NCBI GenBank assembly: GCA_018402545.1
Contig: JAGYIL010000001.1
Coordinates: forward strand, 682,001-746,000
Direction of reading: 5' to 3'
Length of the DNA stretch: 64,000 nucleotides
Source: Saccharospirillum sp.
Lineage (GTDB): Bacteria > Pseudomonadota > Gammaproteobacteria > Pseudomonadales > Natronospirillaceae
In this document: positions 17,682-57,283 of the stretch, piece after piece
Position numbering within the stretch: position 1 is the stretch's first letter
Layout: every line of letters begins with the position of its first letter
Notes under the pieces: model-generated
The model's input: only the letters and a program-made list of their open reading frames with translations
Databases searched by the model: none
Told to the model about the DNA's origin: nothing
Position numbers and translations under genes: made by a program

Positions 17682-18515
17682 CTAATACCCCAGCCTATGA
17701 GAAATCTCCATGGCGGTTTGGATTACCTGCTCCGCAAGGCCGGGAATGAGCTCATCTTTCATGCGGATGACAGGCCCGGCAAGTGCCACGCTGGCGACGA
17801 CCGTTCGTTCGTTGTTGTAAATGGGCGCTGCAATGGAGCGCATGCCGGTTTCACTTTCCTGATCTTCGAGTGAATAGCCTTGCAGGCGAATGGTTTCCAG
17901 TTTTGATTTCAAGGCGTTGACGTCGGTGATCGTATGAGCTGTTCGTTGTTTGATCGGTTTCTGCAGTATCAGATTTCTGTCGGATTCCGGCATAAACGCA
18001 AGCAGTACCTGGCCTTCCGCCGTGCATGCCATAGGCTTGCGCACGCCTATGTCGGATCGCATGCGAATGGCGTGACTGCTTTCCAGGTGAAAGGCGTACA
18101 AGATCTGATCTTCATCCGGAATGGCCAGAAGTATGGTTTCATTGGTCCTCGCGCGCAGCTCCATCAGCATGGGGCGGGACTCATATGAGACATTCATGCG
18201 TCGACGCACCAGGGCTCCCAGACTGAATAAGGCTAAACCCAGACGGTATTTGTCGTTCGCCGGGTTTTTTTCCAGGAAGTGGTCTTCAACCAGCGTCGTG
18301 GCAATACGGTGTGCAGTGCTTTTGGCAACGTCCAATGCCCGGGCAAGTTCAGTTATACCCAGTTCGTTGGTCTCGTTGGAAAAGGCTTTCATCATTTTCA
18401 GGGCATTGCTAACTGACGATAGCGAAGTACGGTTACCGGGCTCGGAAGACGATGATTTTTTCGGGCGAGCCGTTGCGCTTTTCACACTACTCATACTGCA
18501 GGTTCCTGATTTCAT
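17682..18515 (-). CDS. IclR family transcriptional regulator (IclR1)
   Basis: A 277-residue repressor or activator with an N-terminal winged helix-turn-helix (GITELARALDVAKSTAHRIATTL, about 53-75) and a C-terminal effector domain (GVRKPMACTAEGQVLLAF; DQESETGMRSIAAPI). It is very similar to the second IclR protein at 51070-51894, including the recognition helix (AKSTAHR versus AKSTVHR) and the stretch EKNPANDKYRLGL. Both probably read the same operator. An operator-like site lies at 18611-18640 in the gap it shares with the divergent TauE-like gene, suggesting autoregulation. IclR proteins commonly control aromatic-acid catabolism. Confidence 0.92.
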   Translation of the reverse strand: MKSGTCSMSSVKSATARPKKSSSSEPGNRTSLSSVSNALKMMKAFSNETNELGITELARALDVAKSTAHRIATTLVEDHFLEKNPANDKYRLGLALFSLGALVRRRMNVSYESRPMLMELRARTNETILLAIPDEDQILYAFHLESSHAIRMRSDIGVRKPMACTAEGQVLLAFMPESDRNLILQKPIKQRTAHTITDVNALKSKLETIRLQGYSLEDQESETGMRSIAAPIYNNERTVVASVALAGPVIRMKDELIPGLAEQVIQTAMEISHRLGY

Positions 18516-18610
18516 GCCGGCATTGTTCGACGAGTCTTACACTAATATTGAAAATCGACAAGCAAACCGGGTGGTCTGATGTGCTTGCTACTCGACTGCT
18601 ACGTTTATCA

Positions 18611-18640
18611 TTCCGTTATATGAAACGATGTTCTTTAAAG
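18611..18640. promoter_or_regulatory. IclR-type operator-like site 1
   Basis: TTCCGTTATATGAAACGATG followed by TTCT contains the core GAAAC-N3-GTTC (18622-18633) and a left outer arm TTCC-N-TTAT. The same architecture occurs at four other promoters in the window. It sits between divergent iclR1 and the tauE-like gene. Confidence 0.55.
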
Positions 18641-18762
18641 TAATAAGTCTATATCATTGCGGCAATAGAAGTCTCCGTACCCTGAGTCGGGTGTGGAGTT
18701 TACCAGGCCCGGTGCTTCCTCAGCGCGATGGCCTTTTCCCGTAGCAATGGAGGTGATCCGCA

Positions 18763-21555: not shown

Positions 21556-22671
21556 ATGTCCAAGAAAGATGCACTCGTCTCCGACGAAGTCGCCCAGAAA
21601 TTTGCCAAGGAAAAAGAGTCGCCCTATACCCGCTGGGTCGCCAGTGAAGGGTTGGACATTATTGATGGTATCTATGTTGAAGACCTGAATACCGTTGCGT
21701 TGAAGCCCTGGGACCGCCGTGGCGGCCGTGGTGTGTTCATTAATCATGATGCGTCGCGGACCACGAATGATTGCTACGTCTGTGAGATTCCGGCAGGTAA
21801 GGAACTGGCACCACAACGTCAGTTGTTTGAAGAAATGATCATGGTGCTCAGCGGCAACGGGTCAACCAGTGTCTGGAATGACGCGGGGCAGAAAGTGACG
21901 TTCGAGTGGGGCCCGGGTGCGTTGTTTGCTATCCCTCTCAATACCTGGCATCAGCACTTTAATGGCTCTGGTAGCAACGTGGCGCGCTTTGTATCGGTGA
22001 CCAACATGCCACCGATTGTGAACCTATACGAAGAAATGGACTTCATCTATAACACCGCACATGACTTCAAAACCCGGTTCTCTGGCGAAGCCGACTATTT
22101 TGCTCCGAAAGATGAAATGAATGGCTTCCGACTGGAGACCAACTTCGTTGCCGATGCGGTGAACCTGCCTCTGGTATCAGCGAAAGAGCGTGGCGCCGGT
22201 GGTGGACACATTCGTTTCAATCTCGCGAAAAGCTCCATGAATGCGCACATCTCCCAGTTCCCAGTGGGTACCTATAAAAAGGCGCACGCTCACGGACCCG
22301 GTGCCCACGTCATCATTCTGGCGGGTGAAGGCTATTCCCTGATGTGGCCGGAAGGCGAAGAGCCCAAGCGCTACGAGTGGAAGCCGGGAACACTGATCAC
22401 ACCACCGAACATGTGGTTTCACCAGCATTTCAACACCGGCACCACGCCTGCGCGCTATCTGGCCTTTAAATATGAAGGTGTTGCGTTCCGAAATGCCCAG
22501 GGCGTGCCAAAAGCCTGGATCAGCAAGCGCATTGGTGGCCACCAGATCGACTATGCCGATGAGAGCCAACTGGTACGGACCATGTTCGCCGATGCGTTGT
22601 CAGAAAAAGGTCTGACGCCGCAAATGGCTGATGCATACGAAGCAGAGAAAGACACGCTGCCACCGCTTTAA
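21556..22671 (+). CDS. Bicupin protein, function unknown
   Basis: A 371-residue cytoplasmic double cupin and first gene of the TTT1 operon, with AAGAGG upstream. The C-terminal cupin (about 225-325) retains a metal site KAHAHGPGAH and a later WFHQHFN; histidine replaces the usual glutamate. The N-terminal cupin has lost the paired histidines (APQRQLFEE) but keeps WHQHFN. Bicupins of this size include gentisate-type dioxygenases, yet the HQHFN signature is shared with four smaller cupins in the island, pointing to a separate family. It could be a dioxygenase, isomerase or ligand-binding protein. The activity is not determined by sequence reading. Confidence 0.75.
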   Translation: MSKKDALVSDEVAQKFAKEKESPYTRWVASEGLDIIDGIYVEDLNTVALKPWDRRGGRGVFINHDASRTTNDCYVCEIPAGKELAPQRQLFEEMIMVLSGNGSTSVWNDAGQKVTFEWGPGALFAIPLNTWHQHFNGSGSNVARFVSVTNMPPIVNLYEEMDFIYNTAHDFKTRFSGEADYFAPKDEMNGFRLETNFVADAVNLPLVSAKERGAGGGHIRFNLAKSSMNAHISQFPVGTYKKAHAHGPGAHVIILAGEGYSLMWPEGEEPKRYEWKPGTLITPPNMWFHQHFNTGTTPARYLAFKYEGVAFRNAQGVPKAWISKRIGGHQIDYADESQLVRTMFADALSEKGLTPQMADAYEAEKDTLPPL

Positions 22672-22801: not shown

Positions 22802-23362
22802 ATGTCTGATTCAAAATCCGATGCAGCAGAGGGCGGCCAGGTTACCTGGGAGCGCTGGACCAAAAAACGCACCTTCGTGCGAGCGCTTGAAGGAACCTAC
22901 GGCGAACTTAAAGAAGAGTTGTTTAACCAGCCCCGCATCTATCCTACCCAGGATCTCGCGTGGAAGGGTGGTCCGCAAAATTTCGGCAAGAAGGTGATTA
23001 ACCCCCAGTCGTCAAAGATTGCCCAGACCATTGAAACGCACGTCGATGCGTTCTCGCCCGGTGGTTATGGTCAAAAGCACGGTCACATGAATAGCGCTGT
23101 CTTCTTCGTACTGAAAGGCAAAGGCCACGATGTACACGATGGTCGCCGCATTGACTGGGAAGCCGGTGATGCTCTGATTGTCGAAAATGGCTGTGTACAC
23201 CAGCATTTTTCAGACGACCCCGATGATGAAACCATTTGTCTGATCATGAAAGCGAAACCCATGTTCCTGTTCATGCATCTTATTTTCCAGGAAATGGTCG
23301 AGTACCCGCCCAAGACGCCGGCCCCGGGTCAGGAAAATTATACGCCACCGGCGTCTTTGTAA
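22802..23362 (+). CDS. Single-domain cupin, ligand-substituted paralogue
   Basis: A 186-residue cupin. Motif 1 reads KHGHMNSAVFFVLKGKG and motif 2 GDALIVENGCVHQHF, so three histidines are present, but the expected motif-1 glutamate is serine. Its paralogue at 49264 has HGHVNEAAFYILDGKG with the glutamate in place. The tail ends in KTPAPGQENYTP, like the paralogue's TEPAPGAEGF. It is second in the bicupin-cupin-cupin-TctA-TctB-TctC order. The altered metal ligand suggests changed metal choice or loss of catalysis. The function of the family in TTT operons is unknown. Confidence 0.8.
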   Translation: MSDSKSDAAEGGQVTWERWTKKRTFVRALEGTYGELKEELFNQPRIYPTQDLAWKGGPQNFGKKVINPQSSKIAQTIETHVDAFSPGGYGQKHGHMNSAVFFVLKGKGHDVHDGRRIDWEAGDALIVENGCVHQHFSDDPDDETICLIMKAKPMFLFMHLIFQEMVEYPPKTPAPGQENYTPPASL

Positions 23363-23387: not shown

Positions 23388-23975
23388 ATGAGCACCGATA
23401 TTCCATTTGTGTCAGACATTGAGCGCCAGCGCTCACGTACCGATGTAAACGCCAGTTTTTACAATGATGCCTTAAAAGCCTCCAAAGAGTTTCGCCGCGA
23501 GTACCAGGAACGCAAGAACGTGGTCAAGTGGAGCGAGATGCCGATGGAGCGTTCGGCCGATGGCCTGATCAAGCACATCATCAATGAGGGCATGAACACC
23601 AAAGAATGTGCCATTGATATCTACATGCAGTTTTTGGCCGTTAATGGAGCGACCGGTACCAGCCGTCACCTGACCGAAGAGGTGGCGTTTGTTATCGAAG
23701 GTCATGGCTACGACCTGCATTACGACGTTAAGTTTCGCTGTGAAGACGAATTCGTGTGGGAGTGGGAAACAACCCCCAAGAAATATGAATGGGGTCCGGG
23801 TGATTTTATCTATATCCCGCCTTACTGCGCGCACAAGCGATTTAACACCAGTGATCAGGAAGCGCGGGTTGTGGTGATTAACAGCCGTATGGTCAAGGCA
23901 ATAGGGTTTGACTGGTTTGATCAGCTGGAACCCGCTGAAGGGTTTGAAGACCTTTGGGTACCACCGTCTGAGTAA
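23388..23975 (+). CDS. Single-domain cupin, His-substituted paralogue
   Basis: A 195-residue cupin that begins 25 bases after its neighbour and has AGAGGAG upstream. Motif 1 is GTSRHLTEEVAFVIEGHG and motif 2 IYIPPYCAHKRFN. Compared with its paralogue at 48609 (GKHRHLAEECLYVLEGKG, IHQHFN) the first metal histidine is serine and HQHF is HKRF. Both proteins share an N-terminal domain with EMP-E/SKQGLLKH-like and MN-T segments. The pattern suggests the TTT1 pair has diverged together in metal binding. Confidence 0.8.
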   Translation: MSTDIPFVSDIERQRSRTDVNASFYNDALKASKEFRREYQERKNVVKWSEMPMERSADGLIKHIINEGMNTKECAIDIYMQFLAVNGATGTSRHLTEEVAFVIEGHGYDLHYDVKFRCEDEFVWEWETTPKKYEWGPGDFIYIPPYCAHKRFNTSDQEARVVVINSRMVKAIGFDWFDQLEPAEGFEDLWVPPSE

Positions 23976-24086
23976 GATCGGGCTAAACAGAATAACAACA
24001 ATTGATAGGCAGCCAAGCAGGTTGCCAATGTGAATCTGGCTGTACCCGGTTCCCCGGGCAGCCGGTGCCACACAGGAGTTTCCCGT

Positions 24087-25598
24087 ATGTTTGATGCAGC
24101 CCTGCAAGGGTTGATGGGTATTCTGCACTGGAAGGCGTTTGCGATGATGATGATTGGTATTGTCATCAGCAGTACGCTCGTAGCCATGCCCGGAGTTGGC
24201 AGTAAGACCGCTATCGCATTGCTGTTGCCTTTCGCCTTTGTTTTGGAAAAGTATGAAGCAATTGCTTTGATTGTCAGTGTCTGGGCCGTCAGTAATACGG
24301 CTAACTCTATTACCGCCATCCTGTTTTCAGTGCCCGGGGGCGGTGGCTCTCAGGCAACGATTATGGACGGCTATCCCATGGCCAAAAACGGTGAGGCCGC
24401 CCGTGCGCTGGGCGCCTCTTTTACCGCGTCGGCCATCGGTGGTGTTCTGGGAGCGCTGGCTCTGTTGGCGGCGATTCCTATGGTCAGACCTCTGGTGTTG
24501 CTGCTTGGTCCGCCAGAGTTCTTCATGCTGGTGATGATGGGTGTGGTGATGGTGGGTGCTTTGGCGGGTAAAACGCCACTGAAGGGCATAGCGATTGGCG
24601 TTCTGGGATTTGCCATCTCGCTGATTGGAATTCAGTCGCAGACCGGCACTCCCCGTTACACCTTCGACATCTTGTACCTGTTTGATGGTATTGGTCTGGT
24701 TCCGCTCACTATTGGCTTGTTTGCGATCCCGGAACTTATTTCACTTGCCGCTCGCGGAAAGACGATATCGAATGTTGATCTGGGAGATTTGAGCGCCGGC
24801 CGACTGCAGGGCATAAAAGACGCCTTTATAAATTGGTGGCTGGTGGTCCGTTGTAGCATGGTGGGTGTCTGGGTTGGGATCATCCCTGGTCTTGGGTCTT
24901 CGGTTGCGGACTGGTTTGCCTATGGCCATGCGCTTCAAACCTGTAAGGGTGCCAGTAAAACCTTTGGTAAAGGCGATGTACGCGGCGTGATTGCCGTGGA
25001 CGCGGCCACCAATGCCAAAGAAGGCGGTGCACTGATACCTACGCTGGCCTTTGGCATTCCCGGTAGCAGTACATTGGCCTTGATTTTTGGTGGTCTTTTA
25101 GTCGTCGGTGTGACCCCGGGCAAGGAAATTCTGACCACCCAGCTGGACGTTACCTTTTCGATCATCTGGTTGCTTATTATCTCGTCCATTCTTACGTCGG
25201 TATTGTGCCTGATGTTTACCAAGCAGTTGGCGATGGCAACTATGTTGCGTCCCACTGTACTGGTGCCGGTCGTTCTTGCGATGGCGGTACTGGGTAGCTT
25301 TGCCCATTCTAATCGACTTGAAGATGTTGCCGTCATGGCAATTTTCGGGGTCCTCGGATACTTTTTGCGTCTGGGTAACTGGCCGCGCCCTCCTTTATTG
25401 TTGGGGGTAGTTCTGGGGCCATTGGCCGAGCGGTTCATGTGGACCTCCTACCAGATCTATGGATATGGCTTTCTGATACGCCCCGGGGTACTGATCATTG
25501 CCGCTATTTTGGTGGTGTCACTGGCCTACCCCATGTGGCAAAAGCGTCAGGCTGAACGTGCCCAGAAGGCAGAAGTAGCCGCCGGGGGTGAATCATGA
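24087..25598 (+). CDS. tctA: TTT transporter large membrane subunit TctA (TTT1)
   Basis: The protein has 503 residues from ATG 24087, which has CACAGGAG upstream; the longer reading into the previous gap adds nothing conserved. It has about twelve TM helices. The two TctA repeat signatures are visible: MPGVGSKTAIALLLPF near the start and IIPGLGSSVADWFAYGHA with FGKGDVRGV and ALIPTLAFGIPGSS in the second half. It is the channel of a sodium- or proton-coupled carboxylate importer that works with TctB and the periplasmic TctC. TctB overlaps its stop by an ATGA. Confidence 0.95.
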   Translation: MFDAALQGLMGILHWKAFAMMMIGIVISSTLVAMPGVGSKTAIALLLPFAFVLEKYEAIALIVSVWAVSNTANSITAILFSVPGGGGSQATIMDGYPMAKNGEAARALGASFTASAIGGVLGALALLAAIPMVRPLVLLLGPPEFFMLVMMGVVMVGALAGKTPLKGIAIGVLGFAISLIGIQSQTGTPRYTFDILYLFDGIGLVPLTIGLFAIPELISLAARGKTISNVDLGDLSAGRLQGIKDAFINWWLVVRCSMVGVWVGIIPGLGSSVADWFAYGHALQTCKGASKTFGKGDVRGVIAVDAATNAKEGGALIPTLAFGIPGSSTLALIFGGLLVVGVTPGKEILTTQLDVTFSIIWLLIISSILTSVLCLMFTKQLAMATMLRPTVLVPVVLAMAVLGSFAHSNRLEDVAVMAIFGVLGYFLRLGNWPRPPLLLGVVLGPLAERFMWTSYQIYGYGFLIRPGVLIIAAILVVSLAYPMWQKRQAERAQKAEVAAGGES

Positions 25599-26122
25599 TT
25601 GGTTACTTCAAGCGTTCAACGATAACGGTGCTGTTGCTGGTGCTGTTTATCTACATCGTTATCGGTGGCAGCGGCATGTCTGCGCAGGCACGGTTGTTTA
25701 CGCTGGCAGTTGGCTGGATTGGAATAGTCATTGTGGGTGTTCAACTAATACGTGAGCTTATTCTTCAGCGAAACGAAAATCAGGTTATGGCATCCGGTCA
25801 GCCTCAGGCAGAGCATGAGGAGGATGGCCCTGGTGGAAACGTTGACTTCGCGGTTACCGATGAAGAAAAAACAACCTACGGTCGCAGGGCGGCCTTAGAA
25901 CAGTTCGGTTGGTTGTGGGGTATGTTTGTTTGTCTCTGGTTACTGGGGTTCTACATCACTGTCCCGGCAATGATGGGGTTGTACCTGCGTCGGCACCGTG
26001 AAAGCTGGCGACTGACAATATTAATGACCGCTGGCATTTGGCTGGCGGTTTGGGGTTTGTTTCACGAGCTGCTCTATCTGCCTTTTCCTAAGGGGTATCT
26101 GTTTGTACTCCTGGGAGGTTAG
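25595..26122 (+). CDS. tctB: TTT small membrane subunit TctB (TTT1)
   Basis: A 175-residue protein with four predicted TM helices: about 7-25, 31-50, 105-125 and 133-160. The hydrophilic middle (ENQVMASGQPQAEHEEDG...) is long for the family. TctB proteins are poorly conserved; the call rests on size, topology and the ATGA overlap with tctA. It works in the inner membrane with TctA. Confidence 0.85.
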   Translation: MIGYFKRSTITVLLLVLFIYIVIGGSGMSAQARLFTLAVGWIGIVIVGVQLIRELILQRNENQVMASGQPQAEHEEDGPGGNVDFAVTDEEKTTYGRRAALEQFGWLWGMFVCLWLLGFYITVPAMMGLYLRRHRESWRLTILMTAGIWLAVWGLFHELLYLPFPKGYLFVLLGG

Positions 26123-26198: not shown

Positions 26199-26360
26199 AC
26201 TCGAGATTATGATCTGAAAAGTATTTCTTGCAGAATGCCGGGGTCTGGCTTTGGCTGCTGCAGAAGTGGGCCGGCCCGTGTTTCGGGTTGACCTCCAATA
26301 CTGGTTGAAACCTCTGTCCCTGGAGGCCAGCCAGACAACAATAAAGTGAGGAGAAAGGCA

Positions 26361-27374
26361 ATGAACCATAACCTGATAAAAGGTGCGGTGAAAACGCTGG
26401 GCACACTGGCAATCGCATCATTGGTCGGTTTCGGCAGCCAGGCGCTGGCGGAGAGTGGCGAGGTAAGTTTCGAAGGTAAAACAGTCAACATTAGCATTCG
26501 GTCCACGCCTGGCGGTGGGTATGACACTCATGGTCGGTTAATGGCCCGACACATTGGCAAGTATTTGCCCGGCAACCCAAACGTTATTCCAGTGAACCGC
26601 CCGGGTGCGGGAGGGGTTGTGGCGGCTAACTATCTCTACAATCAGGCCGCGATTGACGGAACGGATCTGCTGATCGCTGCACGTGAGATTGCACTGGCAG
26701 AACGGCTGGGTGGTCCTGGCATTCGCTATAAAACACTTGAAATGCCAGTACTGGGCAGCCCCATCAGTGAAGCTCGTATCTTGATGACCCGTGGCGACTC
26801 GCCCATCAAAACACTTGAAGATCTGAGAAATGCCAGCGGAACGGTGTTGTTTTCAACCAGTGGTGTAGGTGCAGGGTCGACCCAAATGATTCAGGTGTTG
26901 GAGCAGGCGGGCTACCCGGCTCAGTTTATTACAGGTTACGAGGGCACCAGCGATCAGCTGCTGGCCGCACTGCGAGGCGAAGTTGAAGGCTTCAGCAGCA
27001 CGTACCCGGGGGCAAAGGATCAGGTGGCAGATGAAGGCCTGAATATCATTGCGAAAATCGGTAACCACCCGGATCTGGTCGATGTCCCGGATTTACGCAC
27101 CGTGCTGGAGGGTGATGCACGTGCGGCGGCAAATGTGCTTGCAGTGCCGTTGATTGCAGGCCGTCCGTTCTTTACCGCACCGGGAACACCGCCGGAAGTA
27201 GTAGCGGTTTTGCGCGAAGCGTTTCGACTGACAACTGAAGACCCGGATTACATCGACGAACTTTCCCGCTCAGGTGATGAAGTCGGTTTTACCGACCCGG
27301 CAGAAATTGAAGAATTGTACCGGGAAATATTCAATGCGTCCGATGCGGTATTGGAACTCTTCCAAGAGGATTAA
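26361..27374 (+). CDS. tctC: TTT periplasmic binding protein TctC (TTT1)
   Basis: A 337-residue Bug-fold protein with signal peptide to SQALA (cleavage about residue 30). The start ATG 26361 follows GAGGAGAAAG. The mature N-terminus has the ligand loop ISIRSTPGGGYDTHGRLMARH and the NRPGAGGVVAANYLYN motif. It captures a carboxylate in the periplasm for TctAB. Here tctC lies after tctAB, unlike TTT2 and TTT3, where it comes first. It has little obvious similarity to the other two TctC proteins beyond family motifs, suggesting different ligands. Confidence 0.92.
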   Translation: MNHNLIKGAVKTLGTLAIASLVGFGSQALAESGEVSFEGKTVNISIRSTPGGGYDTHGRLMARHIGKYLPGNPNVIPVNRPGAGGVVAANYLYNQAAIDGTDLLIAAREIALAERLGGPGIRYKTLEMPVLGSPISEARILMTRGDSPIKTLEDLRNASGTVLFSTSGVGAGSTQMIQVLEQAGYPAQFITGYEGTSDQLLAALRGEVEGFSSTYPGAKDQVADEGLNIIAKIGNHPDLVDVPDLRTVLEGDARAAANVLAVPLIAGRPFFTAPGTPPEVVAVLREAFRLTTEDPDYIDELSRSGDEVGFTDPAEIEELYREIFNASDAVLELFQED

Positions 27375-30847: not shown

Positions 30848-30860
30848 GAGAAGTCTCCTG

Positions 30861-31996: not shown

Positions 31997-32011
31997 GGCC
32001 CGGTTCCCAAT

Positions 32012-47984: not shown

Positions 47985-48536
47985 ATGTCTGATGAAATAA
48001 AAAGCCCTGAGCACGACGGCCGGGAGGATGGCACCACAGTGACAAAGGAAGTTCGTGTCGCAGAAGTGGTGTTTATACTGTTTTTACTGGTCGTCACCAT
48101 TGCTGCGATTCTGGAGTCGCTGACTTACAGCTTGACCGCTGCCCGCACGCCTCTGGTCATTCTGACGCCTTTGCTGTTGCTGATCATGGGTATCAGCATA
48201 CGGGAAGTCAGAGCGATGAAGCGGGAGTCGGCCAGTATAACGGCGACGGTGAAGCGGGCGTTGAAAGGGCAGTATCCGACACTCAACAAGTTTTTCGTCT
48301 TCAGTCTCTGGCTGATATTTCTGATCATTATGGTGATCGTACTGGGGCAGTACGTAGCTATTGCCCTGTTTACCTGGCTGTTGATGCGTCCGGTTGGCAA
48401 AGAATCAAACTCTCTGTCGATCAAGGTGGCTCTAGGCCTTCCACTGGCGATCTATGGGCTCTTTGACCTGGTTCTCAACCTGGAGATGTTCCCGGGTATC
48501 CTGTACCAGTTGTGGGCCGGTTATGACGTATTTTAG
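47985..48536 (+). CDS. tctB: TTT small membrane subunit TctB (TTT2)
   Basis: A 183-residue protein starting three bases after tctA. It has four hydrophobic segments (about 30-50, 57-72, 102-130 and 145-175) and a charged N-terminal tail. Identification is by topology and position, as TctB sequences vary. It assists TctA in carboxylate import. Confidence 0.85.
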   Translation: MSDEIKSPEHDGREDGTTVTKEVRVAEVVFILFLLVVTIAAILESLTYSLTAARTPLVILTPLLLLIMGISIREVRAMKRESASITATVKRALKGQYPTLNKFFVFSLWLIFLIIMVIVLGQYVAIALFTWLLMRPVGKESNSLSIKVALGLPLAIYGLFDLVLNLEMFPGILYQLWAGYDVF

Positions 48537-48608: not shown

Positions 48609-49214
48609 ATGGCATGGACAGAATCACAGTACTGGTTGGCTGGTGATGTTACTCATGACCTGTACCAGGATTTACTCGACGATGCAGCGACAGCCCCTGA
48701 GCGGGACAAGTTACGCAAAAAAGTCGTTCGACCCGAAGAAATGCCCTGGGAAATGTCGAAGCAGGGTCTGCTTAAGCATTTGTTGCATGACAAAATGAAT
48801 ACCCGGATGGAGTCGGTCGACGCTTATATGCAGATCATTCCACCTGGCAGCCACTCTGGCAAGCACCGTCATCTCGCCGAGGAGTGTTTGTATGTGCTTG
48901 AAGGTAAGGGCTATGACCTGCATCAGGATTGTGATGTGGAAATTACTGACACTTATCACTGGAAGGCGCAAGACAGAGTGCAAAAATTTGAGTGGGAAGC
49001 CGGTGACATTATATATATTCCGCCTAACACCATTCACCAGCATTTCAATGCTGACCCAGACCGGCCTGTCCGCTTGATTTCAGCGATAAACCGGATCTAT
49101 AAGAAGTTCGGCTTAAACGATGTCGAGCAGCTCGAAAATGCCCCGGAATATGACCCGTCAGTCACCTTGAACGCCAAGGTCATACACGCTTACATCACCG
49201 GAAATTCCAAATAA
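48609..49214 (+). CDS. Single-domain cupin (TTT2), complete metal site
   Basis: A 201-residue cupin. Motif 1 GKHRHLAEECLYVLEGKG and motif 2 GDIIYIPPNTIHQHFNADP give the full His-His-Glu-His set. The N-terminal region (RPEEMPWEMSKQGLLKHLLHDKMNTRMESVDAYMQ) is shared with the paralogue at 23388, which has lost one histidine. It should be the metal-bound, possibly catalytic, version. The reaction is unknown; links to EutA-like and TTT genes recur in both operons. Confidence 0.83.
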   Translation: MAWTESQYWLAGDVTHDLYQDLLDDAATAPERDKLRKKVVRPEEMPWEMSKQGLLKHLLHDKMNTRMESVDAYMQIIPPGSHSGKHRHLAEECLYVLEGKGYDLHQDCDVEITDTYHWKAQDRVQKFEWEAGDIIYIPPNTIHQHFNADPDRPVRLISAINRIYKKFGLNDVEQLENAPEYDPSVTLNAKVIHAYITGNSK

Positions 49215-49263: not shown

Positions 49264-49821
49264 ATGGGTACAGAATCGCACTATCATAGCAAGAAGGACC
49301 GGGTTTTTGTTCGAGCCATTGCAGGTCCCTATAACCTGAACGATGAACTGCAGCGTTTGCGCGACATGCCGCGAGTGCGTAAGGGCAAAGAGATTAAGTT
49401 TCAGGATGGCCCCCAGGCTTATAGCCGACATTATGTGGAACCCAAAGATGGCATCACACAGACTTTTCATTTGCACCTGGAAGAATATGCTCCGGGTGGC
49501 AAGTCGCAAAAGCACGGCCATGTGAACGAAGCGGCGTTTTACATACTGGATGGCAAGGGCTATGAAATTCATGATGGCATTCGTTACGACTGGCAAGCAG
49601 GTGACATCGCCATTGTGCACAACAACTGCGTGCATCAGCACTTCAACGCGGACCCTGAGCGGCCGGCACGGGCGCTGGTGATCAAGACCAAGCCGATGTA
49701 CATGTTCATGAACATGCTTTTTCAACAGCAAGTAGAGCCACGGCCTACCGAACCAGCTCCCGGTGCCGAGGGTTTTGTGGAGCGAGAAGCCGAAGATAAC
49801 TATAACCACGGTGACTATTAA
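49264..49821 (+). CDS. Single-domain cupin (TTT2), complete metal site
   Basis: A 185-residue cupin whose ATG is preceded by AGGAG at 12 bases. Motif 1 KHGHVNEAAFYILDGKG and motif 2 GDIAIVHNNCVHQHFNADPERP retain HxH, Glu and His. It is the counterpart of the 22802 cupin, in which the Glu is Ser. The adjacent cupin pair is kept in both TTT operons, although in opposite gene order relative to each other, which suggests the two cupins work together, perhaps as a heteromer. Confidence 0.83.
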   Translation: MGTESHYHSKKDRVFVRAIAGPYNLNDELQRLRDMPRVRKGKEIKFQDGPQAYSRHYVEPKDGITQTFHLHLEEYAPGGKSQKHGHVNEAAFYILDGKGYEIHDGIRYDWQAGDIAIVHNNCVHQHFNADPERPARALVIKTKPMYMFMNMLFQQQVEPRPTEPAPGAEGFVEREAEDNYNHGDY

Positions 49822-49943
49822 CCACTGAATTCAAGAAACTGACCGTATCAGTTTTGCCGGAGTATTTATGCTCCGGATCATTTTCGCCGTTGTGTTCAAC
49901 AAGGTGGCGGTTTCTATTGTCTCCATAAACCGGAGTGAGCTCT

Positions 49944-50939
49944 ATGTTAGGTGGTTTTCTCGCGCTGCTGTCAGCGATAACCTTTGGGTTCAATAATGCC
50001 AGTGTTCGACGTGGTGTGCTGAGCGGGTCCGTTCTGCAGGCACTGGCCATTACGGTTCCCGTCGGTGTGCCTTTCTTCCTGGTAATGATACTGGTAACCG
50101 GGAATATCGGTGCGGTCACCGGTTTGACCACAGAAGCCTTTCTCTGGCTGGCGGCAGCCGGGGTATTGCACTTCGTGATCGGTCGTTATTGCAATTACCG
50201 CTCGACCAAAGCGATCGGAGGCAATCTGTCAGGCCCCTGGAAGCAATCGAATCTGATATTGGCGCTCGTTCTGGCCATCGTGTTTTTGGGCGAGGTGCTA
50301 ACACCACTCAAAGTTGCAGGCATCGTTCTTATTCTAATGGGCGCTTATTTCACGTCAAAAGCCACCTTCAAAAAGCCGAAACCGGCTAAGGAAGGGGAGC
50401 CAACAGCGGAACATACGGCGTTTGAACCCAGTTACCGTGAAGGCTATAGCTTTGCCCTGTTGTCAGCAGTGGCATACGGTTCCAGCCCGATACTGGTGCG
50501 AATGGGGCTGGAGTCACAAGGCCCCGGTTCCAGCTTCTGGGGCGGTCTTATTTCGTACTCGTCAGCAGCGCTGGTGATTGGCCTGATTCTATTGCTTCCC
50601 GGCCGCTGGAAGCATGTTCGTGAGGTGGGGCAGTCGTCTGTTCGCTGGTTTTCACTGGCGGCCATCCTGGTCGGTTTCTCGCAAATGTTCAGGTACATGG
50701 CGCTGGCTATTGCACCGGTGTCGGTGGTCACGCCGATCCAGTCCACCTCCGTGGTATTCCGGGTAATATTCGGTTGGTTGATCAACCGTAATACGGAAGT
50801 TTTTGGGGCCTGGGTGATTCTGGGTGTTCTGGTGACCATGCTCGGTGTGTTGGGCTTGTCGGTATCGACAGAGATAGTAACCGCTAACTTTCAGCTTCCG
50901 GGCGGTGTCATGCGGCTGATTGAGTTTAGCTGGCCTTGA
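49944..50939 (+). CDS. DMT superfamily (EamA) transporter
   Basis: The 331-residue protein starts at ATG 49944 (CCGGAG upstream; an in-frame GTG at 49935 is possible). Ten TM helices occur in two EamA repeats: GGFLALLSAITFGFNNASVRRG and GYSFALLSAVAYGSSPILVRMG. It has a charged cytoplasmic linker of about 35 residues between the halves. It probably exports or imports a small metabolite of the pathway. It is last of the TTT2 operon; iclR2 follows after 130 bases. Confidence 0.88.
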   Translation: MLGGFLALLSAITFGFNNASVRRGVLSGSVLQALAITVPVGVPFFLVMILVTGNIGAVTGLTTEAFLWLAAAGVLHFVIGRYCNYRSTKAIGGNLSGPWKQSNLILALVLAIVFLGEVLTPLKVAGIVLILMGAYFTSKATFKKPKPAKEGEPTAEHTAFEPSYREGYSFALLSAVAYGSSPILVRMGLESQGPGSSFWGGLISYSSAALVIGLILLLPGRWKHVREVGQSSVRWFSLAAILVGFSQMFRYMALAIAPVSVVTPIQSTSVVFRVIFGWLINRNTEVFGAWVILGVLVTMLGVLGLSVSTEIVTANFQLPGGVMRLIEFSWP

Positions 50940-51069: not shown

Positions 51070-51894
51070 ATGAGCGAATTACGACGCATCAATCAAGCGA
51101 CTGAAAAAGCGGAAAGCAAGGTCGATGACAAAAAGAGCCGTGGGTTGTCCTCACTGGCCAATGCCATTGCGCTGCTGAAAACCTTCAGTGAAAAAGACGT
51201 TGAGCTGGGGATAAGCGAACTGTCCAAGCGGTTGGGGCTTGCCAAGAGCACGGTGCACCGAATGGCGACCACACTGGTGATTGGCGGCCTGCTGGAAAAG
51301 AACCCTGCCAATGACAAGTATCGCCTGGGGCTGACCCTGTTCAGTCTGGGCGGTCTCGTGCGCCGGCGTCTGGATGTGCCCAGTGTTGCCAGACCAATCC
51401 TGCAGGAACTGAAGAGCGAATTGAATGAAACCGTTTTGCTCGGCGTTCTGGATGGTCCGGAAGTGGTGTATCTGTTCCACTTTGAGAGCACCCATGCCAT
51501 TCGCATGCAGTCGGATATTGGTGTTCGAAAGGGTTCGCTCTGCACCGGTGAAGGCCAGGTGATGCTGGCTTTCAAGAGCGATGTCGAGATCGATAAGGCG
51601 CTGTCGGGTCCAATCGAACGGAGAACGAATTTCACCATCACCGACCCTGAGCAGCTGCGCAAGAAATTGCTCAGGATCCGCGCTCAGGGATATTGTGTTG
51701 AAGATCAGGAAAGCGAAGTTGGTATGAGGTGTATAGCGGCCCCCATTTTCAATATGAACGGTGAGGTAGTCGCTGGCATGGGGCTGGCGGGCCCGATTCA
51801 CCGGATGGACGACGATACCATCATGCGCTACGTGCCCCATGTCCAGGATACCGCCCGTGCAGTCTCTCAGAGACTGGGCTATCGTCCCTTCTGA
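51070..51894 (+). CDS. IclR family transcriptional regulator (IclR2)
   Basis: A 274-residue IclR protein, close paralogue of IclR1 at 17682-18515. The HTH is GISELSKRLGLAKSTVHRMATTL (about 48-70); the effector domain includes GVRKGSLCTGEGQVMLAFK and DQESEVGMRCIAAPI. Recognition helices differ from IclR1 only by Val/Ala at the visible core, so the two likely share operators of GGAAC-N3-GTTC type. No clear operator precedes its own start. Paired paralogues at each side of the island may respond to different inducers. Confidence 0.92.
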   Translation: MSELRRINQATEKAESKVDDKKSRGLSSLANAIALLKTFSEKDVELGISELSKRLGLAKSTVHRMATTLVIGGLLEKNPANDKYRLGLTLFSLGGLVRRRLDVPSVARPILQELKSELNETVLLGVLDGPEVVYLFHFESTHAIRMQSDIGVRKGSLCTGEGQVMLAFKSDVEIDKALSGPIERRTNFTITDPEQLRKKLLRIRAQGYCVEDQESEVGMRCIAAPIFNMNGEVVAGMGLAGPIHRMDDDTIMRYVPHVQDTARAVSQRLGYRPF

Positions 51895-51981: not shown

Positions 51982-52935
51982 ATGTCTACCTTACACACAC
52001 CCAAAAGCCCGATCATCGACAACCGGATCAAATTCCGGCATTTGCAATGCTTCATTGAGGTGGTTCGACAGGGTGGGGTGGTGCGGGCTGCCGACTATCT
52101 GTCGCTTACTCAGCCTGCCGTTTCAAAGAAATTGCGCGAGCTTGAGGAGATGCTTGGCGTTGAGCTGCTAAATCGCCAGCGCAAGGGTGTCGAACTGACC
52201 CGGTTCGGTGAGGTGTTTTTACGTTATGCCCTGAACAGTACCGATGCCTTGCGTGAGGGTATTGACCGGGTCAGTGCTTCCAGCAGAGCAGAGCATTCGC
52301 CGGTTGTTATTGGCGTATTGCCAACAGTCGCCACCACCGTCATGCCCAAAGCGTTGCGTGCCTTTAAAGCCATGATGCCTTACGCCGATATCACCTTGCT
52401 AAATAGTAGCAACAAAATGTTGCTCGATGCATTGCGCATGTCGGAGCTGGATCTGGTGGTAGGGCGGTTATCTACACCTGCGCAGATGCAGGGTCTGGTG
52501 TTCGAGCAACTGTATCAGGAACGCGTCGCTATCGTAGTGCGGCCGGGGCATCCGGTACTCAAAGAGTCACTGGTATCGCTGGAAGTGCTTTCCGATTACC
52601 CAATACTGATGCCACCTCCGGACTCCGTGATTCGCAGCCTCGTTGATCAGTTCATGATACTGAACGGTATTCGACCCAACGCGAATCGCATCGAAACCAT
52701 CTCTCATGCATTTGGCCGTTCTTATGTGCGTGATACTGATACTGTCTGGCTCATCTCGCATGGGGCTGTTGATGCTGATATAAACGAAGGGCGACTCGCC
52801 GAGCTACCCTATGACTTCTCATCCACACTGGGACCTGTAGGCATCGCAACCCGTGTTGACAGCCATCCAAGCGAGGCTCAACGACTCCTGATGGACCAGG
52901 TACGTCTGGTTATACAGAGCATGCACACACCCTGA
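51982..52935 (+). CDS. pcaQ: LysR-type regulator, PcaQ-like
   Basis: A 317-residue LysR protein. The helix-turn-helix segment FRHLQCFIEVVRQGGVVRAADYLSLTQPAVSKKLRELE (about 18-55) and the effector domain (VVIGVLPTVATTVMPKALRAF; LDLVVGRLS; YPILMPPPDSVIRSLVDQFM; ISHAFGRSYVRDTDTVWLIS) closely follow Agrobacterium PcaQ, the activator of protocatechuate genes. It stands directly before the TTT3 operon and the 4,5-dihydroxyphthalate decarboxylase, so it may activate them when a protocatechuate-like compound is present. No clear ATAACC-type PcaQ box was found. Confidence 0.85.
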   Translation: MSTLHTPKSPIIDNRIKFRHLQCFIEVVRQGGVVRAADYLSLTQPAVSKKLRELEEMLGVELLNRQRKGVELTRFGEVFLRYALNSTDALREGIDRVSASSRAEHSPVVIGVLPTVATTVMPKALRAFKAMMPYADITLLNSSNKMLLDALRMSELDLVVGRLSTPAQMQGLVFEQLYQERVAIVVRPGHPVLKESLVSLEVLSDYPILMPPPDSVIRSLVDQFMILNGIRPNANRIETISHAFGRSYVRDTDTVWLISHGAVDADINEGRLAELPYDFSSTLGPVGIATRVDSHPSEAQRLLMDQVRLVIQSMHTP

Positions 52936-53325: not shown

Positions 53326-54285
53326 ATGAAAATTAAAACAGCCTTGCTGTCGGCAGTTGCCGGCATTGCACTCATGTCGGGTGCCCAGGCCGATGTTGAT
53401 CCGTCTGACACCGTATCAATTGTTGTACCTTATGGCCCTGGTGGTGGTTTCGATCGTGCAGTCAGGGGCTTTGCTCCTTACTTCAGTGAAGCCCTGGGAG
53501 GTGCCAACGTTATTACTGAGAATATTCCGGGTGCGGGTGGTCAGCGTGGCTCTACTGAGGTGAGTCGCTCTGAACCGGATGGCCTGACACTGGGTATTTT
53601 CAACCTGCCCGGTTTTGCGTTGCCGGCCATTCTCGGTGAGGAAGTCGGCTACGATTTGCGGGAACTTAGCTGGATTGGCCGTCTGGAGTCGGATGACTAT
53701 GTACTGATTGTTGCTGCTGACTCGGACATTCAAACGCTTGATGATCTGATTGCGGTGGATGACCTGATCATCACCTCGACCGGTTACGGCTCTACCGTGC
53801 TGGCAGCGTTGCAGATTACGGCCAGTGAACTGGGCCTGGCACAGAAAGACCCCATCTATCTGTCCGGTTATGGTGGTACGACCGATGCAATCGTGGGGTT
53901 GATCCGGGGTGATGGCCAGGTCAGTATGGCGCCGGTTTCTTCCGTAACTCCTTACATCGAATCCGGTGACGTTCGCGGACTGGCCATGTCGGGTAGCCAG
54001 AGCCTGTTTGAAGATGTTCCGACCTTTGCCGAAGCCGGGTACCCGGGTTTAACTCCGCTGAACTTGCAGCGTTCCATCGCAGGTCCTCCGGGAATCGATG
54101 ACGCAACCCTCACGCAGTTGCGCTCTGCGTTCATGGACGTGGTGCAGAATGAAGAGTATCTGGAATACGCCAAGAGCATTGGCATGAACATGTCTCCGAT
54201 GAACGGTGCTGATACCGCGGCCGACATTTCCAGCAGCTTTGAATTCTACGAGCGTTTCAGCACCAGCCTGCAAAACCCCAACTGA
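53326..54285 (+). CDS. tctC: TTT periplasmic binding protein TctC (TTT3)
   Basis: A 319-residue Bug-fold protein with a short signal peptide (MKIKTALLSAVAGI to SGAQA, cleavage about 22). Ligand loop VPYGPGGGFDRAVRG and NIPGAGGQRGSTEV match the family. It leads TTT3 (tctC-tctA-tctB-decarboxylase), which is next to the PcaQ-like regulator. Its link with a 4,5-dihydroxyphthalate decarboxylase suggests binding of a phthalate-type dicarboxylate; this is inference. Confidence 0.92.
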   Translation: MKIKTALLSAVAGIALMSGAQADVDPSDTVSIVVPYGPGGGFDRAVRGFAPYFSEALGGANVITENIPGAGGQRGSTEVSRSEPDGLTLGIFNLPGFALPAILGEEVGYDLRELSWIGRLESDDYVLIVAADSDIQTLDDLIAVDDLIITSTGYGSTVLAALQITASELGLAQKDPIYLSGYGGTTDAIVGLIRGDGQVSMAPVSSVTPYIESGDVRGLAMSGSQSLFEDVPTFAEAGYPGLTPLNLQRSIAGPPGIDDATLTQLRSAFMDVVQNEEYLEYAKSIGMNMSPMNGADTAADISSSFEFYERFSTSLQNPN

Positions 54286-54303: not shown

Positions 54304-55803
54304 ATGCTCGACTCTTTTGTGACGGCGACGCTGTATCTCGCCGACGGTGTCACCCTTATGTATCTGATGCTGGGGGTCCTGGTAGGCCTCCTGTTCGGCA
54401 TTATCCCCGGTTTGGGAGGCGCGACGGCCATTGCGCTTTTGCTTCCCCTGACCTTTGGCATGGAGCCTGAACAAGCCATCACACTGATGGGTGGTATTAT
54501 GGGGTCGAGCGCCATTGGTGGTTCTGTTACCGCCATTCTGTTAAATGCCCCTGGCACCGCACCCAATGCCGCGACCTGTTTTGACGGCTACCCTCTGACC
54601 CGGCAGGGAAAGGCTGGACTGGCCATCGGGGCAGCTGCAACCGCATCTTCTCTGGGGGGTATTGTCGGTGTGGTTGTCTTGGTTGCGGTGCTGCCCATGG
54701 CCAAATCGCTGGTGTTGTTATTCGGCCCGCCGGCGTTTTTCATGCTGGCGGTTCTGGGTCTGGTTTCACTGACCATTTCCAATAACAATATGTTGCGCGG
54801 CCTGATCGCAGCCGCCTTGGGGCTGTTTATCGGCTTCGTTGGTTACGACGACATGGGCGGTACTTTACGGTTTACCGCAGGCATCGATTACCTGTGGGAT
54901 GGCATTAAACTGGTCCCCGCTCTTATCGGACTCTTTGCGATTGCCGAGATGATCCGGTTAATGGTGGAGGGTGGGGCCATCTCCAAAGTTGATCGCAATG
55001 AGTTGGGCGAGGTGAAGGGTGTAGGGGCGGGATTCAAAGCGGTTTTCAAGCATCCCAGAACTGTTCTCAGCGGTTCGTTTATCGGTACTCTGGTAGGTAT
55101 CGTTCCGGGTGTTGGTGGAACAGTCGCCTCATTTCTGTCTTATTCATTTACGGTGCAATCGAGCCGTGACAGCTCGCAGTTTGGCAAGGGTGATATCCGC
55201 GGCGTTATAGCCCCGGAAGCCGCAAACAATGCCAAAGACGGGGGCTCCCTGATTCCTACTCTGGCCTTTGGCATACCCGGTAGCGCTGAAATGGCGTTGT
55301 TTCTGGGTGTGCTGGTTTTGCACGGCATGCAGCCTGGCCCATTGCTTCTGATTGAGCGTGAGTGGAGCTTACTGGTATTGATCATTGCCTTGTTGCTGGC
55401 AACGATAGCCTCGGCCTGTGTGATTGCAGTGGCGACCAAATACCTGATCAAAATTACCTTTATTGACTCGTCCATATTGATCCCGACCGTGTTGAGTGTT
55501 GCTCTGGTAGGGGCTTATGCCCTGGAGGGTTCCATGGGCGATGTGATTATGGCTGCTGTGTTTGGTGTCATTGGTTATGTCATGATCCGGCTTGATTTCC
55601 CGAGGATTACGCTGGTTATTGCCATCGTGCTGGGCGGGATGATGGAGCGTAATTTCATCCAGTCGATGCTGATGTTCCGCAGCGATTGGACCGGATTCTT
55701 CCGCGACACCACAAGCCTGGTGATCTTTTTGATCATTGTCGTGGCACTTGCATTGCCTGTTATTGGTCGGATTCGCAGGAGGGTACGCAATGCCAATGCT
55801 TAA
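54304..55803 (+). CDS. tctA: TTT large membrane subunit TctA (TTT3)
   Basis: A 499-residue polytopic protein beginning 18 bases after tctC. Signatures: FGIIPGLGGATAIALLLPLTFGMEP, AILLNAPGTAPNAATCFDGYP, GIVPGVGGTVASFLSYSF, FGKGDIRGVIAPEAANNAKDGGSLIPTLAFGIPGS. It has about twelve TM helices. Overlap with tctB is 14 bases. Confidence 0.95.
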   Translation: MLDSFVTATLYLADGVTLMYLMLGVLVGLLFGIIPGLGGATAIALLLPLTFGMEPEQAITLMGGIMGSSAIGGSVTAILLNAPGTAPNAATCFDGYPLTRQGKAGLAIGAAATASSLGGIVGVVVLVAVLPMAKSLVLLFGPPAFFMLAVLGLVSLTISNNNMLRGLIAAALGLFIGFVGYDDMGGTLRFTAGIDYLWDGIKLVPALIGLFAIAEMIRLMVEGGAISKVDRNELGEVKGVGAGFKAVFKHPRTVLSGSFIGTLVGIVPGVGGTVASFLSYSFTVQSSRDSSQFGKGDIRGVIAPEAANNAKDGGSLIPTLAFGIPGSAEMALFLGVLVLHGMQPGPLLLIEREWSLLVLIIALLLATIASACVIAVATKYLIKITFIDSSILIPTVLSVALVGAYALEGSMGDVIMAAVFGVIGYVMIRLDFPRITLVIAIVLGGMMERNFIQSMLMFRSDWTGFFRDTTSLVIFLIIVVALALPVIGRIRRRVRNANA

Positions 55804-56254
55804 TTCACTGGCCCGTCCGACGGTATTGATTTCTTGTTTCATGCTGATGTTGGCCATCACCCTACTTTACCTGTCACAGGGGTTTGGCCGATCCAGTGGC
55901 ATGTTTCCTCGATTTATCGGCTGGGTCTTTGTTGTTTTGACGGCGGCCGACGTCGTCGTTCAGTTGGTTGCCTGGTACCAGCGTAAGTTGCCCGAACCCA
56001 CCGAAACAGCGATTACCATCAAGCAATTGAAGTCGATGGGTTGGTTGCTGGGGCTGGTCGTTGCGCTGTCTATTTTTGGTTTCCTGATCACCATTCCCGC
56101 CTATATTTTTACGTTTCTGACCTGGCGTGCCGGACAAGAGAAACGGCGATCTGCCATGATCGCAATCGGCGCTTTGGTCTTTGTGTGGGTCATTTTTGTC
56201 TGGTTACTGGACTATGAACTGTATGCGGGTCTGTTACTGAACAACCTTAGCTGA
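55790..56254 (+). CDS. tctB: TTT small membrane subunit TctB (TTT3)
   Basis: The 154-residue protein starts at ATG 55790 after GCAGGAGGG; longer versions would read further into tctA. It has four TM helices (about 10-28, 38-58, 80-105 and 115-140). Size, topology and operon place support TctB. It overlaps the tctA end, so translation is coupled. Confidence 0.87.
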   Translation: MPMLNSLARPTVLISCFMLMLAITLLYLSQGFGRSSGMFPRFIGWVFVVLTAADVVVQLVAWYQRKLPEPTETAITIKQLKSMGWLLGLVVALSIFGFLITIPAYIFTFLTWRAGQEKRRSAMIAIGALVFVWVIFVWLLDYELYAGLLLNNLS

Positions 56255-56290
56255 GCGTTTGGCAGGTGGGATAACTGAGGAATCGGATCT

Positions 56291-57283
56291 ATGAGCAAAC
56301 TGTCACTATCAATCGCCATCGGTAATTACGACCGGATGAGACCTCTGGTTGATGGCAACGTTCAGATAGACGGTGTGGACCCTGTGTTTATGCTGCATGA
56401 TCCGGAAGAAATCTTTTTCCGTGCGTTTCGCCATGCAGACTTTGACATTACTGAATTGTCGATGAGCAGTTACACGGTGAAAACGTCGAACAATGATTGC
56501 CCTTATATAGCGGTGCCTGTGTTTCCTTCCCGTGCGTTCCGCCATACGTCGATCTACGTGCGCACTGACCGGGGTATTGAGACCCCGGCCGACCTGAAAG
56601 GAAAGCGAGTTGGGGTGCCTGAATATCAACTCACCGCTAACGTCTGGGTTCGAATGATTCTGGAAGAGGACTATGGTGTTAAACCCAACGACATTACCTG
56701 GGTTCGGGGCGGCTATGAAGAGCCCGGCCGGGTAGAGAAAATAAATCTCAAGCTGACAGGGGGCACTCAGGTCGTCAATGTGCCTGACGGTGAAACCATT
56801 AGTCACATGCTGGCGACGGGTGAGCTCGATGCGGTTATCGGACCCCGTGCACCGTCTTGTTTCACTGAGGGTAACCCAAGCGTTGGTTATTTGTTTGCCG
56901 ACCCGATGGCCGAAGCGAAAGCATGGTATCAGCGTACCGGGCTGTTTCCGATCATGCACACCCTGGGCATTCGAAAAACGCTGGTGGCACAGCACCCCTG
57001 GCTGCCTTTCTCTGTATTCAAGGCGTTTGAGAAATCGAAACAGGTGGCCTTGCAGCATCTGACCGACACCTCGGCGACGAAAGTGACACTGCCTTTCGTG
57101 GAAGATCAGTTGCGATCAGCCAGGCTATTGATGGGTCAGGACTTCTGGACTTACGGCTTCGAGCAAAACCGCGAAACGCTGGCCCGCTTTCTGGCACAGC
57201 ATCACAAAGAAGGTTTGTCGAGTCGTCTGGTGTCACCTGAAGAACTGTTTCATCCAGCCAGCATGGAAAGCTTCAAAATATAG
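56291..57283 (+). CDS. 4,5-Dihydroxyphthalate decarboxylase-like protein
   Basis: A 330-residue protein, the family's normal length. It follows the Pht5-type decarboxylase closely in memory-based comparison: NYDRMRPLVDG, DPEEIFFRAFRHADFDITELSMSSY, IAVPVFPSRAFRHTSIYV, TPADLKGKRVGVPEYQLTANVWVR, GGYEEPGRVEK and PRAPSCF. The enzyme removes one carboxyl from 4,5-dihydroxyphthalate to give protocatechuate. There is no signal peptide, which favours the enzyme over a periplasmic binding protein of the same fold. It ends the TTT3 operon, 36 bases after tctB. The PcaQ-like regulator nearby fits a protocatechuate product. Confidence 0.85.
   Translation: MSKLSLSIAIGNYDRMRPLVDGNVQIDGVDPVFMLHDPEEIFFRAFRHADFDITELSMSSYTVKTSNNDCPYIAVPVFPSRAFRHTSIYVRTDRGIETPADLKGKRVGVPEYQLTANVWVRMILEEDYGVKPNDITWVRGGYEEPGRVEKINLKLTGGTQVVNVPDGETISHMLATGELDAVIGPRAPSCFTEGNPSVGYLFADPMAEAKAWYQRTGLFPIMHTLGIRKTLVAQHPWLPFSVFKAFEKSKQVALQHLTDTSATKVTLPFVEDQLRSARLLMGQDFWTYGFEQNRETLARFLAQHHKEGLSSRLVSPEELFHPASMESFKI

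Follow-up and report, generated by a model that had tools for sequence, protein, structure and literature searches.

A conserved gene island in Saccharospirillum sp. that may serve the breakdown of a polyacidic aromatic acid

The window analysed here is a 64,000 nucleotide stretch of Saccharospirillum sp. DNA (contig JAGYIL010000001.1, positions 682,001–746,000) and contains an island of catabolic genes at window positions 17682–57283. The question raised by this island is whether it represents a known aromatic acid pathway in rearranged form or a catabolic system of its own. A preliminary description, made from the DNA letters alone, pointed to a rearranged phthalate/protocatechuate pathway and considered a distinct route for a related dicarboxylate. 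The island is a real conserved catabolic supercluster, and it belongs neither to the isophthalate route nor to the protocatechuate 4,5-cleavage (Lig) route when each is taken whole. Most likely it is a variant of the isophthalate/protocatechuate 4,5 route with non-orthologous steps. A polyacidic aromatic route that ends in LigJ and LigK is probable, and we lean towards a dedicated, widespread supercluster for an aromatic acid of isophthalate geometry with at least one further acidic group. The proposal of a distinct route agrees with the recurrence of the gene content in distant lineages and with the separate LigJ clade, however the word dicarboxylate may be too narrow, as the oxygenase pocket has acquired an Arg in addition to both residues that bind the isophthalate carboxylates.

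Sixteen sets of loci from the same order, from Actinomycetota and from rhizobial and Caballeronia plasmids were compared with the window. Recurrence was counted at ≥40% identity and ≥60% coverage, with single high-scoring segment pairs (HSPs) each covering ≥60% of the query. Comparison of neighbourhoods, which the preliminary description had proposed, shows that 34 of the 42 island genes have counterparts in one or more of the 16 sets, as against none of the 18 flanking genes. The loci were fetched via Pht5a, the PanB-like gene and the Rieske oxygenase gene; these three are not independent, and the fair comparison is between the other island genes and the flanks. A chemotaxis receptor gene (13959–16058) and an alpha-amylase gene (57858–59513) flank the island on its two sides, and megablast of window positions 1–17000 found no near-identical plasmid DNA for that flank. 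At any identity, the Zn-dehydrogenase and Pht5-type proteins are present in all 16 sets, the Rieske oxygenase, Cys-hydrolase, LigJ and LigK-like proteins in 14 each, the reductase in 13, EutA-family proteins and cup1-type bicupins in 10 each and PanB-like proteins in nine. Some sets are short stretches, thus absences there are weak, and part of the tblastn comparisons kept one HSP per query and subject, which hides second copies. In the order-level sample (389 genomes besides the host) seven carry the PanB-like gene at E ≤ 1e-60; in the phylum-level sample (397 besides the host) none does. The Pht5a search led to two named genomes, an Acidimicrobiaceae metagenome-assembled genome (MAG) and Amycolatopsis sp. 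GM8, and the Rieske search to seven plasmid records at 60–80% identity, from Sinorhizobium (three), Phyllobacterium, Rhizobium and Caballeronia (two). A literature search of titles and abstract starts, with few subscription papers, found no description of the cluster; its themes were EutA with cupins, gene clusters for trimellitate, hemimellitate or benzene polycarboxylic acids, and combined module terms.

The Rieske oxygenase has as its best solved relative the isophthalate dioxygenase (IPDO) of Comamonas testosteroni KF1, 9INA/9IOY, at 502 bits. A ferredoxin, recognised from its own sequence, and a BenC-like reductase, below its cut-off, complete the three-component system that had been described. 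According to the IPDO report, R234 and H257 bind the isophthalate carboxylates; a V178A/F249H double change admitted phthalate and terephthalate, and V178A by itself did not admit phthalate (PMC12445078). In the alignment Arg250 and His273 of the window protein correspond to R234 and H257, so that both carboxylate ligands are kept. IPDO F249 is replaced by Arg265, and Arg is found here in 15 of 15 other orthologues (67–84% identity); the partial row L054 did not reach this position. Phe occupies the place in all six homologues examined at 50–58% identity, which come from a pool of 46 plasmid records below 60%. The Rieske tree has 21 rows (midpoint-rooted, as are the LigJ and LigK trees), and its 15 island-type oxygenases form one clade (100/99). 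From Arg at the 249 place together with the two kept carboxylate ligands we infer that the substrate bears a third, anionic group on its ortho face. In the G117 genome (L055:6674–9428) an FAD monooxygenase and a further open reading frame (ORF) are found beside the Rieske ferredoxin; these are not seen in the window island.

LigJ of the island scores 538 bits to the solved 4-oxalomesaconate hydratase 6DXQ. Assignment as a LigW- or LigY-type enzyme was rejected, the score to LigY being 217 bits. LigK exceeds the cut-off of its model (332.5 against 304.5 bits, TIGR02798), thus both homologues named earlier are present. The LigJ tree has 18 rows, with no experimentally studied LigJ among them, and splits 15 LigJ of the recurring gene set (the module), window included, from three canonical sequences (100/100). 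One of the canonical sequences is a second LigJ of the host.

The absence of LigAB, LigC and LigI noted in the preliminary description is true of the island, however LigA and LigB are found elsewhere in the host genome (4.25 Mb, 11 contigs, 95% complete). The host has one LigB-family gene, at C1:272279–273067, which exceeds the cut-offs for class III extradiol dioxygenase subfamilies. LigA adjoins it (148.9 against a cut-off of 108.6, TIGR02792), and the canonical LigJ, 62% identical to the island LigJ, is beside them. About 426 kb lie between the end of this locus (C1:270974–273572) and the island. The three genes stand together at L007:12969–15573 (G000 C1:270.97–273.57 kb) without LigC, LigI or LigK, and the locus perhaps belongs to a gallate route. 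No LigI at 1e-30 and no LigC at 1e-20 were found in the host, and neither was found at the thresholds used in the module genomes G268 and G341. The queries came from a complete-looking cluster in G117 (L061) with the ORF order A, B, then C, U, I, K, J. Its A, B, K and J proteins match host proteins; the names of C, U and I come from position and sequence features rather than a family search. The C protein matches Gfo/Idh/MocA oxidoreductases (mostly sphingomonad, 60–70%) and the I protein matches amidohydrolases of plasmids.

These genes bear on the view that the island is an ordinary isophthalate/phthalate island, in which protocatechuate (PCA) is cut by the LigAB or an intradiol enzyme of the genome, the island LigJ and LigK finish the route, and the cupins are peripheral. 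The LigA and LigB genes beside a LigJ paralogue fit this view, as do two intradiol-dioxygenase-family genes (G000 C6:307082–307603 and C1:315572–316078), the finding that the sole host LigK at 1e-40 is the island copy, and the closeness of the Rieske oxygenase to IPDO among solved structures. We consider it unlikely, however, as the thresholds used revealed no LigC or LigI homologue in the host, the island LigJ belongs to a separate clade, and all 16 oxygenase orthologues have Arg for Phe249. In addition, G268 and G341 carry the module with no detectable PCA-type LigB: LigB was not detected in G268, and the single LigB-family match in G341 is not hit by the host PCA-type LigB at 1e-10.

Comparison with known systems places the island between several of them. 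With the Comamonas testosteroni isophthalate pathway (iphA2CBA1) it shares a homologous Rieske oxygenase with both carboxylate-binding residues, a reductase and transporter proteins. It differs in an additional Rieske ferredoxin, Arg for F249, Pht5-family proteins, LigJ and LigK within the cluster, and a Zn-dehydrogenase in place of the known IphB, whose family we take to be a different one. With the Lig pathway it shares LigJ and LigK; it lacks LigAB, LigC, LigU and LigI, its LigJ forms a separate clade, and its dehydrogenase and hydrolase are of other types. The phthalate 4,5-dioxygenase (Pht) pathway has Pht5-family decarboxylase relatives and a LigXa_C-type Rieske oxygenase in common with the island, whereas the island oxygenase resembles isophthalate dioxygenase more closely than it does any phthalate enzyme in the PDB, and the island has three putative hydroxyaromatic decarboxylases.

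The first bicupin, cup1, resembles gentisate 1,2-dioxygenase and related bicupins in its HxH...HxH motif, and nine aligned members of its family share both HxH motifs in the C-terminal domain. The similarity is distant. The top solved match of the cup1 profile is gentisate dioxygenase 3BU7 (7.6e-7), and the gentisate 1,2-dioxygenase model TIGR02272 is not passed (cup2, 23.5 against 442.1 bits; cup1, no match listed). The pairs cup2/cup3 and cup5/cup4 are each adjacent and are mutually related. Unlike gentisate 1,2-dioxygenase, cup1 is coupled to a EutA-family protein. This protein, and the theme of EutA, bicupin and nickel, are additions to the genes listed earlier. In the window cup1 and the EutA gene share a strand, and cup2, cup3 and genes of a tripartite tricarboxylate transporter (TTT) lie between them. 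Among six 2-Mb relatives, five have the EutA-family gene next to a bicupin in their module loci (L021, L022, L024, L025 and L026); L023, from the remaining one, is a short piece at a contig end. Further such neighbours are a second pair in G117 (L056), one in G341 (L083), two in Phyllobacterium and two in S. terangae. An additional EutA-like gene in G341 was recognised by eye in the ORF list across two adjoining stretches. Homologues of cup1 at 1e-30 are found in four of 72,556 plasmid records, at two places each, and these are the four best of 24 EutA records, with EutA likewise at two places each.

The island protein matches PF06277 over its full length, as does EutA, the reactivase of ethanolamine ammonia-lyase. 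It differs in its His/Asp-rich N-terminus, its bicupin neighbour in most relatives read, and the lack of EutB. EutB was undetected in five of five genomes with a positive E. coli control, and action on ethanolamine ammonia-lyase was therefore rejected. The papers found to name EutA together with cupins concern the EutA of hydroxyectoine breakdown, an unrelated protein. The His/Asp-rich N-terminus is present in the window protein and in the module copies of the aligned 2-Mb relatives, and weakly in G341. Genes for metal uptake accompany the pair in two lineages. In Phyllobacterium, NikR and HoxN, both over their cut-offs, are beside EutA and bicupin, and in G341 (L060:13604–17182) DUF4198, CbiM, CbiQ and a CbiO-like ATPase lie between the reductase and the bicupin, with CbiM and CbiQ over their cut-offs. 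The window itself has as nickel/cobalt evidence one weakly transporter-like protein.

The recurrence of cup1 bears on a further view, that several independent operons have come to be neighbours, one for a Rieske/Pht5 route, one for a LigJK route and one for a bicupin/EutA/metal system unrelated to them. Such an arrangement would fit G117, in which some 54 kb separate the Rieske gene from the PanB/LigJK block. It would also fit both Caballeronia plasmids, where the 41 kb read of each contain Rieske, dehydrogenase and Pht5b without LigJK, and the region read from Rhizobium WYJ-E13, which has Rieske and LigJ without bicupin or EutA. Most island genes recur together, however, and all four plasmid records with cup1 also hold EutA, an Arg-type Rieske oxygenase and the Zn-dehydrogenase. 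Independent operons are thus quite improbable.

The Zn-dehydrogenase is favoured for oxidation of a cis-diol over a LigC role, as dehydrogenases lie within 4 kb of five of the six F-type Rieske genes. A zinc-binding dehydrogenase is annotated within 4 kb in four of these loci and an alcohol dehydrogenase about 2 kb away in one; Comamonas has a short-chain dehydrogenase (SDR) instead. Two proteins had been assigned to the 4,5-dihydroxyphthalate decarboxylase family and both hold up. Pht5a matches the decarboxylase structure 9JP7 at 7e-29, and Pht5b is tied to the family through homology to Pht5a regions, not by direct comparison with 9JP7. The best named matches of the class II aldolase-family protein are the PhtC 3,4-dihydroxyphthalate decarboxylase (77.7 bits, cut-off 200) and the solved Mlr6791. 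The hydrolase has Cys at the nucleophile position in 11 of 11 orthologues examined, and its likeness to meta-cleavage hydrolases is weak. The PanB-like protein aligns with five solved PanB proteins. In the alignment to 1M3U it has Thr for the Glu of the E. coli PanB VLEC motif, a residue we take to be the catalytic E181, and Thr is found in nine of nine orthologues. A pantothenate role is disfavoured, the catalytic Glu being missing; a LigU-like isomerase is a guess.

These components can be arranged into a putative pathway. TTT importers would take up the substrate, and the three-component Rieske system would form a cis-diol at a carboxyl-bearing ring carbon. The Zn-dehydrogenase would then oxidise the diol with loss of CO2. 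The leading candidate for the substrate, although a doubtful one, is trimellitate (1,2,4-benzenetricarboxylate), which would fit the pocket; its decarboxylating dihydroxylation would give 4,5-dihydroxyphthalate, the substrate of Pht5. Enzymes of the Pht5 family, the class II aldolase family or both may take off more CO2 to reach a protocatechuate- or gallate-level intermediate. The ring could be opened by the gentisate-dioxygenase-like bicupin, with the EutA-family ATPase and metal (Ni/Co) proteins serving its maturation, or alternatively by LigAB in trans where present; cleavage by the bicupin is put forward tentatively, at somewhat less than even chance. The Cys-hydrolase and the PanB-like enzyme would stand in for LigI- and LigU-type steps, and LigJ and LigK would yield pyruvate and oxaloacetate. 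A more elaborate and rather unlikely form of this scheme is that the EutA-family ATPase was recruited from B12 enzymes to load or reactivate Ni (or Co) in the ring-cleaving bicupin. This would give a LigAB-independent route for opening a hydroxylated benzene polycarboxylate, in which unrelated Zn-dehydrogenase, Cys-hydrolase and PanB-like enzymes carry out the LigC-, LigI- and LigU-type steps before LigJ and LigK.

A different class of substrate would be an N-heteroaromatic dicarboxylate, e.g. pyridine-2,4-dicarboxylate, whose ring after opening and deamination maps onto the LigJ substrate, with the isochorismatase-family hydrolase acting on an amide. Pyridine dicarboxylates suit isophthalate-like recognition and the hydrolase gene is present; the remainder is our own atom mapping. 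However isochorismatase is found in just two of the 16 loci sets, no molybdenum hydroxylase is among the annotated island genes, and the decarboxylases and diol dehydrogenase would be superfluous. Such a substrate is therefore very improbable.

Several observations weigh against a dedicated route for a polyacidic aromatic acid. The LigK tree (12 rows) does not part module from canonical LigK. LigC and LigI homologues are present in five of eight same-order module genomes, therefore the module cannot be regarded as a mere substitute for the Lig route, and the two intradiol-family genes of the host count here as well. The IPDO 249 place is Gly, Thr or Asn in eight Rieske rows at 30–42% identity, and Arg265 could be a structural contact rather than a substrate ligand. 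The V178 place stays Val in all orthologues examined, while entry of phthalate into IPDO needed V178A, and this weakens the case for a third anionic group. Neither the 21 kb of the Acidimicrobiaceae MAG that were read nor the 25 kb of Rhizobium WYJ-E13 contain a match to any of the five window cupins, and cupin types vary among further loci. The five rhizobial loci are without the PanB-like gene, and they hold only an RraA-family protein of 32–33% identity in the place of LigK. Two of seven aligned EutA-like proteins (L027, L056) do not have the His/Asp-rich start. A search of the further loci for NikR and HoxN homologues found none; the metal link is thus drawn from two lineages, CobW and the His-rich proteins. 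Finally, the substrate, the order of steps, the ring-cleaving enzyme, the metal and the parts played by the hydrolase, PanB-like and EutA proteins are predictions.

Benzene polycarboxylates are of wide natural occurrence. If the proposed route is correct, the module would open the bacterial use of such polyacidic aromatic acids to genetic study, in lineages that range from rhizobia and actinobacteria to 2-Mb relatives of the host. It would also tie the EutA family to something besides ethanolamine ammonia-lyase, and Arg at IPDO position 249 would be a predicted substrate-pocket signature that is open to direct mutagenesis.

The features of the island are collected in Table 1. Family calls are from Pfam, NCBIfam and PDB sequence comparisons, and cut-offs are curated model thresholds. 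The five cupins, the hydrolase, the PanB-like enzyme, the class II aldolase, the zinc dehydrogenase, the two IclR regulators and the PcaQ-like regulator of the preliminary description are all present. Its three complete TctABC sets stand for TctA and TctC, which exceed the cut-off three times; TctB2 falls below the cut-off, and TctB3 has no NCBIfam match below 0.05.

Table 1. Genes of the island, with window positions, strand and basis of assignment
Feature	Position	Strand	Remark
IclR regulator 1, PcaR/PcaU/PobR-like	17682–18515	−	below cut-off
Membrane protein, weakly nickel/cobalt-transporter-like, His-rich loop	20293–20991	−	NCBIfam 5e-4, 19.3 bits vs 195; Pfam: no match
cup1, fused bicupin, distantly gentisate-dioxygenase-like	21556–22671	+	72–73% in five same-order relatives
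cup2, cupin adjoining cup3, possible split bicupin pair	22802–23362	+	75–84% in five relatives
cup3, cupin adjoining cup2	23388–23975	+	71–86% in five relatives
TctA1	24030–25598	+	
TctB1	25595–26122	+	
TctC1	26346–27374	+	
EutA-family protein, His/Asp-rich N-terminus	27494–29155	+	PF06277 full-length, 1.7e-111
Isochorismatase-family hydrolase	29347–29985	−	
3-Hydroxyisobutyrate-dehydrogenase-family oxidoreductase	29987–30907	−	under equivalog cut-offs
ArsP-like permease half a	30861–31367	−	below cut-off
ArsP-like permease half b	31364–31996	−	below cut-off
Small protein with His-rich C-terminus	32012–32446	−	sequence
Class II aldolase family	32486–33274	−	true start probably ~33168
Rieske-associated conserved protein	33190–33663	−	no Pfam family
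Rieske oxygenase, isophthalate-dioxygenase type	33727–35049	−	Arg265 signature
Rieske ferredoxin-like protein	35178–35507	+	read from own sequence
BenC-like ferredoxin reductase	35570–36580	+	167.3 bits vs cut-off 430
Two chromate-transporter-family half proteins	36564–37202, 37195–37737	+	
Alpha/beta hydrolase	37743–38654	−	Cys in nucleophile place (GGCMGC)
PanB-like enzyme	38609–39436	−	Thr for PanB catalytic Glu
LigJ (4-oxalomesaconate hydratase)	39520–40542	−	module-specific clade
LigK (4-carboxy-4-hydroxy-2-oxoadipate (CHA) aldolase/oxaloacetate decarboxylase)	40598–41284	−	
CobW/G3E GTPase (metallochaperone family)	41321–42352	−	
Zn-dependent alcohol dehydrogenase family	42367–43476	−	candidate cis-diol dehydrogenase
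Small conserved protein, C-terminal CC	43645–43980	+	no family
Pht5a, 4,5-dihydroxyphthalate-decarboxylase family	44055–44996	+	
TctC2	45337–46392	+	
TctA2	46476–47981	+	
TctB2	47985–48536	+	25.1 bits vs cut-off 29.1
cup4, cup3-related	48609–49214	+	
cup5, cup2-related	49264–49821	+	
EamA-family transporter	49935–50939	+	
IclR regulator 2	51070–51894	+	
PcaQ, LysR regulator	51982–52935	+	TIGR02424, 374.8 bits vs cut-off 303.8
TctC3	53326–54285	+	
TctA3	54304–55803	+	
TctB3	55736–56254	+	position and hydrophobicity
Pht5b, Pht5-like protein	56291–57283	+	51–52% in four relatives

No convincing family was found for the two small conserved proteins at 33190–33663 (157 aa) and 43645–43980 (111 aa). 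The latter, which ends in two Cys, is divergent from the Zn-dehydrogenase gene. The ArsP-like permease consists of two small halves beside a protein with a long His tail (30861–32446), and this pair recurs near cup2/cup3 in relatives. The overlapping chromate-transporter-family halves (36564–37737) also adjoin the cluster in G341 and Phyllobacterium.

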